A DNA stretch of 38,057 bases, from positions 1-38,057 of the IMG/VR virus record IMGVR_UViG_3300021091_000185. One strand, given 5' to 3'. This document shows positions 8,572 through 19,294 of the stretch, in pieces. Under the pieces are notes generated by a model that saw only the letters and a program-made list of their open reading frames with translations, had not been told where the DNA came from and did no database searches. The DNA comes from a virus. How positions within the stretch are numbered: the first letter of the stretch is position 1; each line of letters begins with the position of its first letter. The position numbers and the translations under genes were made by a program.

Positions 8572-10092
8572 ATGCCTAGCCGCGAAACTTTTGCATATCG
8601 GCGAGCAGCGCAAATGCGTGCGCTCAGGGCAACAGAGGATACATCAAATAATACGGATACAATTTATTCGCGAGCGGCAAATGACTTTAAGGTATTCTGT
8701 ACGGTACTGGATAAACCGCCAGCACAACATATGCTGGAATGGCACAGGGAACTTATAACTGGAGAGTCAAATAAATATTTATTAGATATTGCTGGCTCTA
8801 ACGTTGATATTTTATCTCCACGGGGATCGGCTAAATCGACGATGCTCAACCTGTTCACCGCGTGGTGTATCGGGAGACATACAACAGCTCAGCGACCGTT
8901 GCAGATTATTTATGTCTCGTACAACATCGCAACAGCCATACCCAAAAGCCGGATTATCCGTCAGATTGTTGATAGCTCTGAGTTTAAAAAAGTCTTTCCG
9001 AAAGTTCAGTTGAAGGCGGGGATGCAGTCGGACATTGGCTGGTCCATCGACTTTGATTTTGCGGGAATCCCTCGTGTGGGCGATGAGGAGTTTACGTTGC
9101 GTGCGGCGGGTCTCCGAGGTTCGATTACGTCAAAACGTGCTCACCTTGTTATTGTAGATGACCCTATTAAGTCTAGTGCAGATATTAAAAACCCTACTAT
9201 TAGGGATGAAATGAATAACAACTGGTCATCGGTTATCGCCCCAATTATTTTTGAAGGTGGGCGAGCGATATGTCTGGGCACCCGGTTCCACCCCTTAGAC
9301 ATTCATAAAACGATGTTTGTACCTGAGAAGGGCTGGAAACAAGTAACACAAGAAGCGATTACGTATGACAACCACGGAAATCCTGTCAGTTATTGGCCAG
9401 AACAGTGGTCGGCGGAGTATCTGCTAGGGCAGAAAGAACTTGACCCCGTGGCATTTGCCTTCCAGTATCAACAGCAGCCGGTGATGACTTCTGATCTGGT
9501 TGTGTCGCCAGATCTGCTGGTTAAAGGTGAAGTAGTCACAGAATTCGACACATTAGCCGTCGGAATCGATCTTTCAGCTAGTAAAAACGAAACCAGCGAT
9601 TACACCGCTTTTGTTCTGGGCGGTCGTTTGGGCGACAAGTATTACATCATCGATTCCCATCAATGCCGGTCAATTGGCAACTTGGAGAAGATCGATTTGC
9701 TGTGCGATATGTTGCTGGAGTGGGGCATCCTGGGGATGCACGAAGATAAATTTGTTCCTACGTATTCGACAATCACTCTGATTGTTGAGGCTGTTGCGTA
9801 CCAGGCTTCATTGGCAGCCGACTTACGTCGGGTGCTTGTAAACGAAAGAGAGTTGGGAAATCTTCATATTCACGAAGTTAAAGGTTTTAGGGGCGATAAG
9901 ATTGCGCGTTTCCGCGGGACCTTAGGGTTGTTAGAAAATAAGAAAATTATCTTTAATAAGTACCGTAAGTTTGACGCTCTGTTCGATCAGCTCATTAATG
10001 TAGGAGCGACGGCCCACGATGACTTGCTCGACGCGTACACCTGGCTAATCCAGTACCTGCAGCGGCGTGGGAACTTCAGTATCGAGTATTGA
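8572..10092 (+). CDS. terL: Terminase large subunit
   Basis: This 506-residue protein is the DNA-packaging motor. The ATPase domain shows a Walker A-like SPRGSAKST (82-90), Walker B HLVIVDDP (191-198) and the coupling motif LGTRFH (235-240). The nuclease (RNase H-like) domain shows GIDLSASK with D333, IVEAV with E406, and HDDLLDAYTW with D483/D484/D487. The enzyme cuts concatemeric DNA and pumps it through the portal. No terminase small subunit is evident next to it; one of the small upstream or downstream genes may serve. It starts 55 nt from the divergent GT4 gene, and that spacer also holds the minus-strand promoter. Confidence 0.93.
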   Translation: MPSRETFAYRRAAQMRALRATEDTSNNTDTIYSRAANDFKVFCTVLDKPPAQHMLEWHRELITGESNKYLLDIAGSNVDILSPRGSAKSTMLNLFTAWCIGRHTTAQRPLQIIYVSYNIATAIPKSRIIRQIVDSSEFKKVFPKVQLKAGMQSDIGWSIDFDFAGIPRVGDEEFTLRAAGLRGSITSKRAHLVIVDDPIKSSADIKNPTIRDEMNNNWSSVIAPIIFEGGRAICLGTRFHPLDIHKTMFVPEKGWKQVTQEAITYDNHGNPVSYWPEQWSAEYLLGQKELDPVAFAFQYQQQPVMTSDLVVSPDLLVKGEVVTEFDTLAVGIDLSASKNETSDYTAFVLGGRLGDKYYIIDSHQCRSIGNLEKIDLLCDMLLEWGILGMHEDKFVPTYSTITLIVEAVAYQASLAADLRRVLVNERELGNLHIHEVKGFRGDKIARFRGTLGLLENKKIIFNKYRKFDALFDQLINVGATAHDDLLDAYTWLIQYLQRRGNFSIEY

Positions 10093-13134: not shown

Positions 13135-13977
13135 GTGCTGTTTGATTGCTTCCTTTATTTTGACGAAAAGGAGCTTTTAGAGCTTCGGATCAATATTCTT
13201 AAGGACATCGTTGATGGTTTTATCATCACGGATGGCAATCGAACATTCCGTGGAGACCCAAAACCTTTTACTTGCATCGATACCATTCGCGAGTTAGGGC
13301 TTCCTGAAGAGAAGATTCAAGTTCTTCACGTTGAGTTACCTTCTTTTGAGGAGATCCAAATTCCTTGGGCTCGTGAGTACGCACAACGTGATGCTCTTGG
13401 GGTGGGGATGCGTATGTGTCCTCCTGATTCAGTGTTTTTCTTTAGTGATGTTGATGAAATTCCTAGGCCCGACAAGCTTTTAGAGGCTGTAGAAGTCGCA
13501 AAAGCTGATCCTGAACGGTGTGTTCGGCTCTCGATGCCTATGTTTTATGGCCGAGCTGATCTGCGGGTTAAAGATCCAAAAGGTTCAGATGACAAAGCAC
13601 CTAATAGTTGGACTTGCGGCACCGTGGTTTTATATGATCACTTAGATCAAACTCCTTCGCAGATTCGACAAAACTCAAACGATATTGTTTTGGGGGCTTG
13701 TGATGCCGGTTGGCATTTTTCTTGGATGGGCGATGCTGCCCGAATGAAAAAAAAAGTTACTTCGTTCTCTCACTGTTTTGACGATATACCTAATTCGGTT
13801 GCTCCCGCTAACAGTGATGAAATGTTGGCTCACTTAGATACATATAAAGCAAAAGCCGGAGGAACTGATCCACTAGGACGTTCAGACCATATTTTGGAAC
13901 CTTATCCGCATGAACTTTTACCGCCCGAATTGTTTAAACTAAAAAGAGTAAGATCATATTTGCTTCCCGATGGCTGA
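13135..13977 (+). CDS. GT17-family glycosyltransferase
   Basis: The 280-residue protein fits glycosyltransferase family 17 (beta-1,4-N-acetylglucosaminyltransferase-like). The N-terminus LFDCFLYFDEKELLELRIN (2-20), ADG-like FIITDGNRTFRG (29-40), REYAQRD (80-86) and the metal-binding SDVDEIPRP (104-112) are the characteristic elements, with GWHFSWMGD later on. It starts at GTG 13135, just after the promoter-like motif at 13105-13121. Its last 8 nt overlap a tiny Lys-rich gene. Family members transfer sugars in glycan synthesis; in a phage the acceptor is not known. Confidence 0.87.
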   Translation: MLFDCFLYFDEKELLELRINILKDIVDGFIITDGNRTFRGDPKPFTCIDTIRELGLPEEKIQVLHVELPSFEEIQIPWAREYAQRDALGVGMRMCPPDSVFFFSDVDEIPRPDKLLEAVEVAKADPERCVRLSMPMFYGRADLRVKDPKGSDDKAPNSWTCGTVVLYDHLDQTPSQIRQNSNDIVLGACDAGWHFSWMGDAARMKKKVTSFSHCFDDIPNSVAPANSDEMLAHLDTYKAKAGGTDPLGRSDHILEPYPHELLPPELFKLKRVRSYLLPDG

Positions 13978-14173: not shown

Positions 14174-16405
14174 ATGGCGGACAATTTAAGCATTCGACAA
14201 CGTTTTAGCGAGATCTTAGAGGCTTCCCGCTCCCAAGATCGAAGCAAACAATCCGCCACGATGGTTGTGTTGAGTCATTTGCAGCAGATGACGCTGCTTA
14301 TGATCAAAAAAGGTCTGTTTTTCTATTGTGAGCAGGATACTTACAAGTCTCGAACAAAGTTTTTAGACTCTTTAATTTCTTTAAATAAATTAGATATTCG
14401 TTTTCCGGCGATCATTCGAAATTTTTTGATCGACGGCTGCGGGCTCTTTTATTTTCGGCCTGACCAAAAATTAAAATATCAAATTTACTTTTTTTCCAAG
14501 AATCAATACCGCGTTTATCACGATGTAAACGGTGACATAGAGGAAGTTATCATTCTTTACAGCTATAAAGTTCGCAACTCGACTTTAGGTTTGCCTGCGG
14601 ACACTTATGGGCAAAACAAGCGTTACGTCCGTATTTCGATCACTGCAGATTTTATTAAGGAGTTCGAATCGAACAGTGAGCTCAGTTTTGAGCTGGAACC
14701 TGGCAGTGTTTTAACTCCTAAGAACAGTCGTCCCAACGATTTAGGGTTTATTCCTGCTGTTGAGGTTTTAAATAAACCTAATAGCAGCGGCACTGAGGGC
14801 GAGGGTGAATTCGAACCCTTCATGGAGCAAATTGTGCTTCATGATGCGATGACCAAAAACATCGCTAAAAATATTGAGTTTTTTGGTAACCCCACGCTGA
14901 TTAGTTCGCGGCCTAGAAGCGATCTGGTCGAAGCTTCGGATGCAGACCGGACTTTCCGCCCGACAATCAGCAGCCAAAGCGGTTTTGCTGGTCGCGATAC
15001 TCCTTCAACTCGGGTTTCGGAGCCTTTTGGCTCCAATTCGATGCTTGGTGGTTTGCGAGTTCCGCGCATTATCGCAAACGTCGAACCTTCCGACCGCGTG
15101 GGTTACATGACCCCCGATCCGGTCAATGGGGATATGAATCGTTACGCATTATTACTGCGTGAAGAGATTCGTACGGCTTTGGGCGGTGTTGATGAAATTT
15201 CGATTTCGGCTGGCGCTACTGCGACCGAAATTAAAGGTCTTATGGGTCGGGCTCAAGCCACGGCGTTACGTAAGAACAAGAGTTTCTTGACTTATGGTTT
15301 CTGCCGTCTTTTGGAGATGATCCTTTATCACCAAGAGGTTATTTTCCGCGAGAGCTTTATGTCTGTTTCTGGCATGGAGCCTCCTAAACCCCCTAAAGAA
15401 GATAGCGAAGAAGCTGTTGATCGTTATCGCAGGCGGCTTGCTAAATTCGAAGAGAGCGTTGATCTTGCGGTTCAAACAGCCCTCCAGGAAAATAAAGTCC
15501 CCCGTGGTGTTTACGGATTACCTCCTGATGGTGATCGGGATGTTACATATCGCTTCCAAGGAGATGTGTATGAGGACACTGCCTACGACATCAATCAAAA
15601 ATCGATTGTTGTCAGAAACTTGCAGGAGTTAGGGGTTGATAGCGTCGAGGCGCTTAAATATCTCTTCCCTGATAAGACTGACTCCGAACGTGCCGAAATG
15701 CTGAAGGGATTTCCTTTCAGAATGATTCAACAAACTCAAGGCGCATTTTCGCAATTTCTACTATTATTGAATCAGATGTTGCAAGCGCCACATCCACTAG
15801 CGCCGAATCAACCCTTAGCGGCTGATCCTCGGCTAAACATAACGCCCCTGCTTTACAGGACGTTTGACCACCTTGCGCAAGAACTGACTTACTCGGGCAG
15901 CTATGAGCCAGCAGATCCCAGCTTCGATCCCGAGCCCGGTATCCCCGGCGGTAGCGGCCCCACAGGCAGCGCCCTCCCCGGATACGGGCTCAACGTCCTA
16001 CCCCCAATGGGTAGCACATACCCAGGCGGCACCTTCGGCAGTTATGCCCCAAGCGCCGTCGCAGGCAACACCGGCTACGGTCCCTTCTACCAACAGCCAG
16101 TCCAGCCAGTCTCAGTCAACGTCCTTCCCGTCGAATCCGTGGGAGGCGGCTATGGGCAGCCTGGAGCGGGTAGTCTCCCGGCTCTCCCCGTCCCCCAGCC
16201 AGACAGCACAGTATCCGCAGTACCAAACAGCGCCGCAGGATACTCAACTTTACAGTCAGAGTTTACAGGCCCAGCCGTATCTTTACCAAGCACCTACGGC
16301 TCAGCCGACCTCTTACAACAACGGGTATACGACCCAAACTTCTTATCCGACTTCTACGGAGCAACAAGCTCCGCAACTAAGCGCGGAAAGCGCCGCAGTC
16401 GTTAA
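14174..16405 (+). CDS. Portal protein with a long overprinted C-terminal extension
   Basis: The 743-residue protein resembles phage portal proteins in its N-terminal 570 residues: an N-terminal helical and beta wing region with SRTKFLDSLISLNKLDIRFP and FLIDGCGLFYFRPDQ, a tunnel region with EPFMEQIVLHDAMTKNIAKN, and a stem/clip section with LLREEIRTALGGVDEISISA. It forms the dodecameric ring through which DNA is packaged. From residue 577 the frame overlaps the scaffold-like gene (15903) for 503 nt. Here the portal frame becomes Pro/Gly/Ser/Tyr-rich and ends in the basic TKRGKRRSR, unlike typical portals. Whether the full extension is used in the particle is unknown. Confidence 0.85.
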   Translation: MADNLSIRQRFSEILEASRSQDRSKQSATMVVLSHLQQMTLLMIKKGLFFYCEQDTYKSRTKFLDSLISLNKLDIRFPAIIRNFLIDGCGLFYFRPDQKLKYQIYFFSKNQYRVYHDVNGDIEEVIILYSYKVRNSTLGLPADTYGQNKRYVRISITADFIKEFESNSELSFELEPGSVLTPKNSRPNDLGFIPAVEVLNKPNSSGTEGEGEFEPFMEQIVLHDAMTKNIAKNIEFFGNPTLISSRPRSDLVEASDADRTFRPTISSQSGFAGRDTPSTRVSEPFGSNSMLGGLRVPRIIANVEPSDRVGYMTPDPVNGDMNRYALLLREEIRTALGGVDEISISAGATATEIKGLMGRAQATALRKNKSFLTYGFCRLLEMILYHQEVIFRESFMSVSGMEPPKPPKEDSEEAVDRYRRRLAKFEESVDLAVQTALQENKVPRGVYGLPPDGDRDVTYRFQGDVYEDTAYDINQKSIVVRNLQELGVDSVEALKYLFPDKTDSERAEMLKGFPFRMIQQTQGAFSQFLLLLNQMLQAPHPLAPNQPLAADPRLNITPLLYRTFDHLAQELTYSGSYEPADPSFDPEPGIPGGSGPTGSALPGYGLNVLPPMGSTYPGGTFGSYAPSAVAGNTGYGPFYQQPVQPVSVNVLPVESVGGGYGQPGAGSLPALPVPQPDSTVSAVPNSAAGYSTLQSEFTGPAVSLPSTYGSADLLQQRVYDPNFLSDFYGATSSATKRGKRRSR

Positions 16406-16811
16406 TCACTTTGGTCTGGAAGCCCCTGGCATTCTGAACCAATATGCGGTGACGCTTGAGGATGCTCTCATTTCCCAGCACGAAACCCTGGAAAATGTGG
16501 CCGTTCGTGGTGCCGCCATGCAGCACATCCTGACTGATCCTGATCAGTTAGCCGACTATACCAACCGCTTCTTCACTGAGGTTTACCCCGTGGATACGGA
16601 AGAGCCCACAGTGAATTACGAGCCTCAGTACAACCAGATGCCCGCTATCCCGGCTTCTGCTTTAGCTGGTGCTCCTAACCCGAATGCTGAGGGTCAGTGG
16701 GAAGGTTTCACCGAAGCGATGAACCGCAACCCCGAACAAGCGTGGCGTTATCTGTCCCAGATGAACCCCGATGCTTTCCGCAGCAAACTCCTGTTCATGG
16801 ATAATGCCTGA
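15903..16811 (+). CDS. Putative scaffolding protein, overlapping the portal gene
   Basis: The 302-residue protein begins inside the portal gene in a shifted frame and continues 406 nt past its stop. Residues 1-165 are Pro/Gln/Ser/Thr-rich and probably disordered. Residues 165-302 are more ordered and acidic (HFGLEAPGILNQYAVTLEDA, then NPEQAWRYLSQMNPDAFRSK). Position between portal and capsid genes, length, and an acidic helical C-terminus fit a scaffolding protein; a head protease is less likely because no catalytic motif is seen. The start has a weak ribosome binding site, so translation may be coupled to portal translation. A strong terminator follows. Confidence 0.65.
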   Translation: MSQQIPASIPSPVSPAVAAPQAAPSPDTGSTSYPQWVAHTQAAPSAVMPQAPSQATPATVPSTNSQSSQSQSTSFPSNPWEAAMGSLERVVSRLSPSPSQTAQYPQYQTAPQDTQLYSQSLQAQPYLYQAPTAQPTSYNNGYTTQTSYPTSTEQQAPQLSAESAAVVNHFGLEAPGILNQYAVTLEDALISQHETLENVAVRGAAMQHILTDPDQLADYTNRFFTEVYPVDTEEPTVNYEPQYNQMPAIPASALAGAPNPNAEGQWEGFTEAMNRNPEQAWRYLSQMNPDAFRSKLLFMDNA

Positions 16812-16833
16812 TTCAAGGTAAACCTGTAATATG

Positions 16834-16866
16834 AACCCTGTTTAGAGATAAACAGGGTTTTTTATT
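16834..16866 (+). terminator. Rho-independent terminator after the scaffold-like gene
   Basis: A perfect 11-bp stem (AACCCTGTTTA paired with TAAACAGGGTT) encloses a GAGA tetraloop and is followed by a run of T interrupted by one A. It ends the portal/scaffold transcript 23 nt after the scaffold stop. Confidence 0.88.
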
Positions 16867-18178: not shown

Positions 18179-19294
18179 TTGTTCGTCGACAATGATTTTC
18201 CGAAGCTGCTCGGTGCCGAGCTTTACCGTCCGCATCCTGCGTACGTTGTAGAGATGGCAGCGGAGCCTGTGGTTGTTCATGACTTCTCGAAACAACCAGG
18301 CCAAACCGTGCAGCTTGACCGCTATCGTTTCTGGGGTAACCCCGGTAGCAAAGAATCTCGTGAGCGCACTGCAGAGCAGACCATTGGTACTGCTAACAGC
18401 CGCAATATCGTTAAGGACAAAGTGCTGGTTACTCTTAAAGAGTACACTGGCCCTGCTGACCCGAGCGATCCGACTCAACCCAGCACCTTTAAGATTGCTC
18501 GCGAGACCCTGATTACCGCTCAGCGTCTGCTGCTTGATACCGGTAATCTCACTGCTTTCCACCAATCCATCGGTTCGCTGACTCTGCTCGACGATTATCG
18601 TCGTTGGCGCGATCGGGTGTTCATCAATGAACTCCTGAAAGCTGTCTCCAAGGGTCAGGCTTCTGACAGCCAAGGTGGTTACTACTACCCCGGCGATTTA
18701 GCCGTTGGTAGCCTCACCTACTCCAACGCCGAGCAAGCTAAGTTCGACGTTAAGGATGACCTTCTGCGCGTGGTTAAGTCCATGCGTAAGCGTAACGTTC
18801 CGACCTATCAGGACGGTTTCTATCGTTGCGTATGTGATCCGACCTTCCTGATGCACCTGCGTCAGAACAGCGACTTCCGTGAAGTTGCTCGTTACCCCGG
18901 TAACGGTCAGATCAACCCCCTCATGTCGGCTATGCAGCCCAACGCTGCGCTGTACATGGGTCAAGGCTTCGGCCAAGCCACCTTCGTGGCGGGCGAGCCG
19001 ATTATGCCTACCGGTTTTGTTTTTGAAGGCGTGCGATTCTTCGAATCGACCAACATGCCCTCTCAAACTGCCACCGCAAGCATCGGAGGTACTTCCTCTT
19101 CTTACGATTCTGCGATTGGTATGTTCTTCGGTCCTCAAAGCGTTGGCGTGGGTATCGGCGGTAACAACGCTCAGGTGCTGCTCAACAACAACGACGACTT
19201 CAGCCGTTTCATCATGATGATTTGGAGCCTGTACGCAGGTTTCGAACTCCTGAATGCTGATTTCGCCACCGTTGCATACTCCTTTAACGCTTGA
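18179..19294 (+). CDS. Major capsid protein
   Basis: This 371-residue protein is assigned as the major capsid protein on its position after portal and scaffold, its length, and its content. There is an extended N-terminal arm with YRFWGNPGSKESRERTAEQT (49-68), an E-loop-like section, an alpha-rich core (TLLDDYRRWRDRVFINELLK), and a C-terminal section ending LLNADFATVAYSFNA. No T4- or T7-specific motif is claimed; an HK97-like fold is the expected one. Codon choice here is distinctly more C/G-ending than in the neighbours, typical of a very highly expressed gene. It starts at TTG after a strong GGAGG. The stop lies just before the strong ribosome binding site of the next gene. Confidence 0.82.
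   Translation: MFVDNDFPKLLGAELYRPHPAYVVEMAAEPVVVHDFSKQPGQTVQLDRYRFWGNPGSKESRERTAEQTIGTANSRNIVKDKVLVTLKEYTGPADPSDPTQPSTFKIARETLITAQRLLLDTGNLTAFHQSIGSLTLLDDYRRWRDRVFINELLKAVSKGQASDSQGGYYYPGDLAVGSLTYSNAEQAKFDVKDDLLRVVKSMRKRNVPTYQDGFYRCVCDPTFLMHLRQNSDFREVARYPGNGQINPLMSAMQPNAALYMGQGFGQATFVAGEPIMPTGFVFEGVRFFESTNMPSQTATASIGGTSSSYDSAIGMFFGPQSVGVGIGGNNAQVLLNNNDDFSRFIMMIWSLYAGFELLNADFATVAYSFNA

Follow-up and report, generated by a model that had tools for sequence, protein, structure and literature searches.

In phage λ, the scaffold protein Nu3 is coded inside the upstream head gene C and in the same frame, Nu3 being the C-terminal part of C. The locus described here is similar in that a scaffold-like gene is nested in a head gene; in this case, however, two different frames are used and the proteins bear no relation to each other. 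Overlapping genes in viruses, including same-strand +1 overlaps, are a known kind of arrangement (PMC8903798, PMC8227390). The overlaps of DNA viruses have a median length of 15.6 nt, and those in the +1 frame have a median of 14 nt with an interquartile range of 8 to 26 nt (PMC8903798). Compared with these usual +1 overlaps, the overlap in the family of the window (by which we mean the whole stretch of viral DNA analysed, 38,057 nt) is 476 to 677 nt long and lies between two genes of head morphogenesis, the second of which is a putative scaffold gene. A long out-of-frame overlap is uncommon in DNA viruses; here, it is family-wide in a cyanophage lineage and is missing from the reference annotation. 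A literature search, which covered mostly non-subscription papers, found no report of an out-of-frame portal/scaffold overlap.

Among 50,697 phage records the only relative, besides a weak match to phage A-HIS1, is Synechococcus phage S-EIV1 (KJ410740). It has the same genes in the same +1 arrangement, a 554-nt overlap that we re-derived from the sequence, and a portal that is 43% identical to that of the window. It differs in how the locus is annotated, since in GenBank the second gene is represented only by the part that follows the portal (AHV82225.1), and both genes are entered as hypothetical. The conserved ORF of this second gene in S-EIV1 is 325 aa long (KJ410740 59287-60264; L081 7736-8713), as against 133 aa in GenBank. 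In the Acaryochloris phage A-HIS1, ORF063 (FN436268) is a distant portal of PHROG 20475, matched over residues 32-409 with an hhalign probability of 96% and E=2.8e-9. ORF063, however, has just 460 aa, is without a tail, and shares an ordinary 4-nt overlap with the downstream gene. That downstream gene was considered as a distant scaffold outgroup and was set aside, as it is unrelated to the second gene of the window family.

In the window, the first gene occupies 14174..16405 on the + strand and codes for 743 aa, including the overlapped C-terminal tail. The second, scaffold-like gene lies at 15903..16811 on the same strand; it starts with an ATG at a position conserved in the family and codes for 302 aa in the +1 frame relative to the portal. 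The two genes share the 503 nt of 15903..16405, and the preliminary description, which had claimed a same-strand overlap of this length in different frames, was exact in its coordinates. The first gene is a tailed-phage portal protein, as both its fold and its position indicate. Its product matches PHROG 20475 over residues 8-692 with E = 2.6e-164 and PHROG 64 (portal) weakly, with E=1.1e-6, while a sequence search of the PDB gave no detectable match. The AlphaFold model of the protein matches the solved portals of T7, PhiV-1, SPP1, 80alpha and others (Foldseek, probability 1.00, E ~1e-11 to 1e-9); the likeness to T7-type and other tailed-phage portals is one of fold (E ~1e-11). The matched portal chains are mostly of 390-664 residues, and most are therefore shorter than the portal of the window. 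In addition, the gene is located between the genes for the large terminase (8572-10092, PHROG 38) and the major capsid protein (18179-19294, PHROG 1357).

The folded core of the portal, residues 1-573 (14174..15892, + strand), ends in the AlphaFold model with a last ordered helix at residues 557-573, and pLDDT is below 50 for residues 571-672. The overlap starts at residue 577, three codons on, so the earlier remark that portal proteins usually end near the residue where the overlap starts agrees with the predicted structure. From there, the portals of the family run on for about 165-225 codons past the folded domain, across the N-terminal half of the next gene. This tail is predicted to be mostly disordered. 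Two weak helices, 711-719 and 723-728, in a low-confidence region of the model, coincide with a motif, GSADL...DPNFLSDFY (residues 709-728; 16298..16357, + strand), of which G709 and D712 are invariant and P721 nearly so in 45 diverse portals. The basic stretch that had been noticed at the end of the tail, the KRGKRRSR region at 16370..16402 (+ strand), is confirmed and is conserved: the last 20 residues carry a net charge of +3 to +10 in all 45 of these portals.

The second protein lies between the portal and the major capsid protein in gene order, in the window and in S-EIV1 alike. Its AlphaFold model, of low overall confidence (pLDDT 47), has a disordered N-terminal half and a helical C-terminal half (residues 161-300; 16383..16802, + strand, mostly outside the overlap), with helices at residues 261-300 reaching pLDDT values of 65-84. 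The one exception to the predicted disorder of the N-terminal half is a helix at residues 79-93, within the overlap (16137..16181, + strand), which bears the conserved NPW motif (NPWE in the window); P79 and A83 are invariant and N78 is nearly invariant. Searches of PHROG, Pfam and the PDB gave no family match for this protein, which is weak evidence given that scaffolds diverge fast. Judging from gene position and predicted architecture, rather than from family membership, we consider it likely that the second protein is the capsid scaffold.

Each of the 201 unique sequences has an in-frame stop 6-18 nt upstream of the second start, and no further start codon lies in the interval. In the window, it is the TGA at 15885..15887 (+ strand), 18 nt upstream of the ATG and kept in all 65 sequences of the window clade. 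A stop at such a place means that a frameshift further upstream cannot be the source of the protein; as far as the reading frame tells, the TGA shows that the scaffold-like gene is initiated independently and is not reached by an upstream frameshift fusion. A clear Shine-Dalgarno sequence, AAAGGAG or GTAAGGAG, precedes the scaffold start in clades 0 and 2 (the clades are introduced below), and none is obvious before the scaffold ATG in clade 1, that of the window. A hairpin across this ATG in the window is not unusual (z = -0.12). Judging from the gene layout, the portal and the second protein would be separate products of the same DNA, the second made from its own conserved start.

From scans of viral contigs and a single scan of genome contigs we obtained about 300 loci, of which we counted the 235 in which the portal end and a complete second gene are both present. 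The overlap is kept in 233 of these, with a length of 476-677 nt, always in the +1 frame and with an ATG or GTG start. In the two exceptions (L194 and L237), the conserved motifs of both proteins switch frame part-way, apparently the result of an indel in the contig and not the mark of a lineage without the overlap. A further six loci came from a second search pattern, built on a different stretch of the portal. The overlap is present in every one of them, and in two the contig ends within the second gene. Apart from the two frameshifted contigs, then, none of the relatives has a stop in the portal frame, which was the check proposed when the overlap was first noted. Sufficient core for classification was present in 200 unique sequences, which fall into four clades, numbered 0 to 3, between which the portal cores are 54-61% identical; S-EIV1 is in clade 0 and the window in clade 1. 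This S-EIV1-like cyanophage lineage with the overlap was found in both lakes and seas. Some contigs of the family (L164-L173) come from genome bins labelled Euryarchaeota, Bacteroidetes, Blastopirellula or Rhodobacteraceae; these are probably mis-binned phage.

To measure selection, we worked clade by clade with pairs of close, non-shared relatives. For the window clade, the rate of change per site in the overlap is 0.012 where both proteins are altered and 0.032-0.033 where just one is. Changes silent in both frames run at 0.107 per site in this clade, about as fast as synonymous changes do beyond the overlap, and a second value of 0.116 was obtained. Because such changes run at a normal rate, the DNA of the overlap is not mutationally cold. 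The stratified ratio of nonsynonymous to synonymous change (N/S) in the window clade is 0.333 for the portal given the scaffold (CI 0.26-0.39) and 0.375 for the scaffold given the portal (CI 0.30-0.45); the S-EIV1 clade gives 0.578 for the portal and 0.309 for the scaffold. In the four remaining frames of this DNA, one forward and three antisense, N/S is 0.83-1.22 (0.85-1.17 in the window clade), and therefore composition is no explanation of the low values. Assuming a higher transition bias leaves the result unaltered. Synonymous change in the scaffold frame is 0.007-0.044 throughout the overlap and rises to 0.07-0.12 past the portal stop. The frame-aware test that the preliminary description had called for thus finds purifying selection in both coding frames and in none of the other four. 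With both frames open and conserved, and with selection confined to these two, the overlap is by the comparative record a dual-coding one.

Stop avoidance tells the same of the portal frame. Wherever a scaffold codon may end in T and the next begins with AA, AG or GA, that T makes a portal stop, and only sites at which the amino acid permits it were counted. In the overlap, none of 4523 permitted sites has the stop-making T, as against 1929 of 5013 (38%) downstream; in the reverse direction, the count is 0 of 1795 sites in the overlap versus 36% outside. With about 22 stop-capable places per sequence, we calculate that an unconstrained frame would stay open with a probability of ~2e-5 per independent lineage. 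The improbability of a chance-open frame had been argued from the window alone, where the case is modest: the portal frame is stop-free with P = 0.014 under shuffling of the scaffold codons within amino acids and with P = 0.0004 under genome codon usage, and the scaffold frame is open given the portal tail with P = 0.02 to 0.06. It is the comparative evidence that decides the matter, and a chance open frame is ruled out by stop avoidance and the selection tests together. The shift to C-rich composition and the low complexity of the overlap are real, with 50% C at portal wobble positions, yet they are not the reason why the portal frame is open. All in all, we regard it as highly probable, on sequence grounds, that the overlap is real, dual-coding and selected in both frames.

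Directly before the overlap, the portal gene has a block of reduced synonymous change (15722..15901, + strand), in which the portal-frame synonymous rate is 0.01-0.06 versus ~0.12 upstream. The drop is about three-fold and extends over ~175 nt in the window clade and ~270 nt in the S-EIV1 clade. A hidden third ORF was rejected as its cause, since there are stops in every other frame. With RNAalifold windows over the block, nothing more than a short hairpin was seen in clade 1 (z -2.6 to -3.6 around -200), and nothing at all in clade 0; a wider gap-free alignment of the block contained few compensatory changes, and a search of Rfam gave nothing above noise. The minimum free energy in clade 0 is below that of synonymous shuffles (z about -2 to -2.6). 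It is possible that the block is an internal promoter or a translation signal for the second gene.

Such a signal bears on the idea that the overlap serves chiefly in expression control, by coupled or tuned translation or by transcription of the scaffold gene, with the tail as a tolerated by-product of little function. A promoter or translation signal of this sort may lie in the quiet block, which in two clades occupies the ~175-270 nt ahead of the scaffold start, and the tail is less constrained than the scaffold in clade 0 (0.58 vs 0.31). Against this, expression control has no need of a 165-codon tail, since a stop right after the core would do; the tail is under constraint of its own, with some motif residues invariant and the end always basic; and there is neither a significant hairpin at the start nor a convincing covarying structure in the block. 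We therefore hold this explanation to be unlikely.

A programmed +1 frameshift within the overlap, by which portal and scaffold would be physically linked in one fusion protein as a third product, would fit with the order of the frames, always portal and then +1, and with the fact that both are open for ~500 nt, so that a shift anywhere in this stretch gives a fusion. However, we identified no site for such a shift, the scaffold is started from a codon of its own, and the constraint is explained without any fusion, which makes this product very improbable. It is slightly less credible still that the overlap codes for nothing but the portal and that the second gene begins past the portal stop, as in the GenBank entry of S-EIV1, where the gene start is placed at 59863. 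The conserved helices of the second protein do lie mostly beyond the overlap, but N/S in the scaffold frame is 0.31-0.38 within it, and the upstream start, the frame and the NPW helix are conserved, with a Shine-Dalgarno sequence at that start in clades 0 and 2. The converse, that the scaffold frame alone is functional and the portal frame is open only as the scaffold N-terminal half is C-rich and poor in residues that make +1 stops, has in its favour the low complexity of the region and the 1.4% of single-sequence shuffles that keep the portal frame open, but it is already refuted by the selection tests (portal N/S 0.33-0.58 given the scaffold, vs ~1 in control frames), with which the total avoidance of permissible stop-making bases and the tail motif residues invariant across clades agree, and its chance of being right is negligible.

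With regard to the origin of the dual-coding overlap, all clades have the start of the second gene only a few codons away from where the portal fold ends. As an ordinary next gene would begin at just this place, the simplest reading would be that a portal stop next to the scaffold start was lost later on, and that the overlap arose in this way. The portal of A-HIS1, which has no tail and a 4-nt overlap, suits a later loss of the stop, but its neighbour is unrelated to the second gene. Codon usage points to the scaffold frame as the native one in clade 1, and to the portal frame in clades 0, 2 and 3; dating the two frames by this criterion was abandoned, as the clades contradict each other. The earlier proposal of an overprinted portal tail, newer than the scaffold reading, is favoured only in an indirect way by the start position and by the tailless A-HIS1, while codon usage does not bear it out consistently.

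The C-termini of known portals point into the capsid interior. We propose, therefore, that twelve tails of 165-225 residues would hang from the portal crown into the procapsid, and that their GSADL motif and basic end would contact scaffold or DNA in head assembly or packaging. Such a contact of the tail with scaffold or DNA, raised in the preliminary description along with the idea that it might fix portal and scaffold together, would be the most likely use of the tail, and we see about even chances for it. As predicted from the models, the overlap joins two mostly disordered arms with short conserved motifs. A +1 overlap of disordered segments rich in Pro, Gln, Ser and Gly would likely allow both frames to vary fairly freely while neither is easily lost, and the overlap would persist in this manner. 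It is tempting to go further and to imagine that the two disordered arms bind each other, the portal tails recruiting the N-terminal half of the scaffold, so that one DNA segment would set the specificity of assembly initiation on both sides. This is doubtful; if it were so, portal and scaffold would be evolutionarily locked together. If the scaffold call holds, head initiation at the portal could be tested by single mutations that are silent in one frame only. The family also offers about 200 natural sequences for the study of two disordered proteins that share one DNA.

Two features beside the gene pair may be mentioned. A 280-aa ORF at 13135-13977 adjoins the portal gene; it has no PHROG match and, by our impression, may resemble a glycosyltransferase. 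After the scaffold stop, a strong terminator-like hairpin at 16833-16860, with 12 pairs and a T run, sets the portal and scaffold genes apart from the downstream capsid gene.
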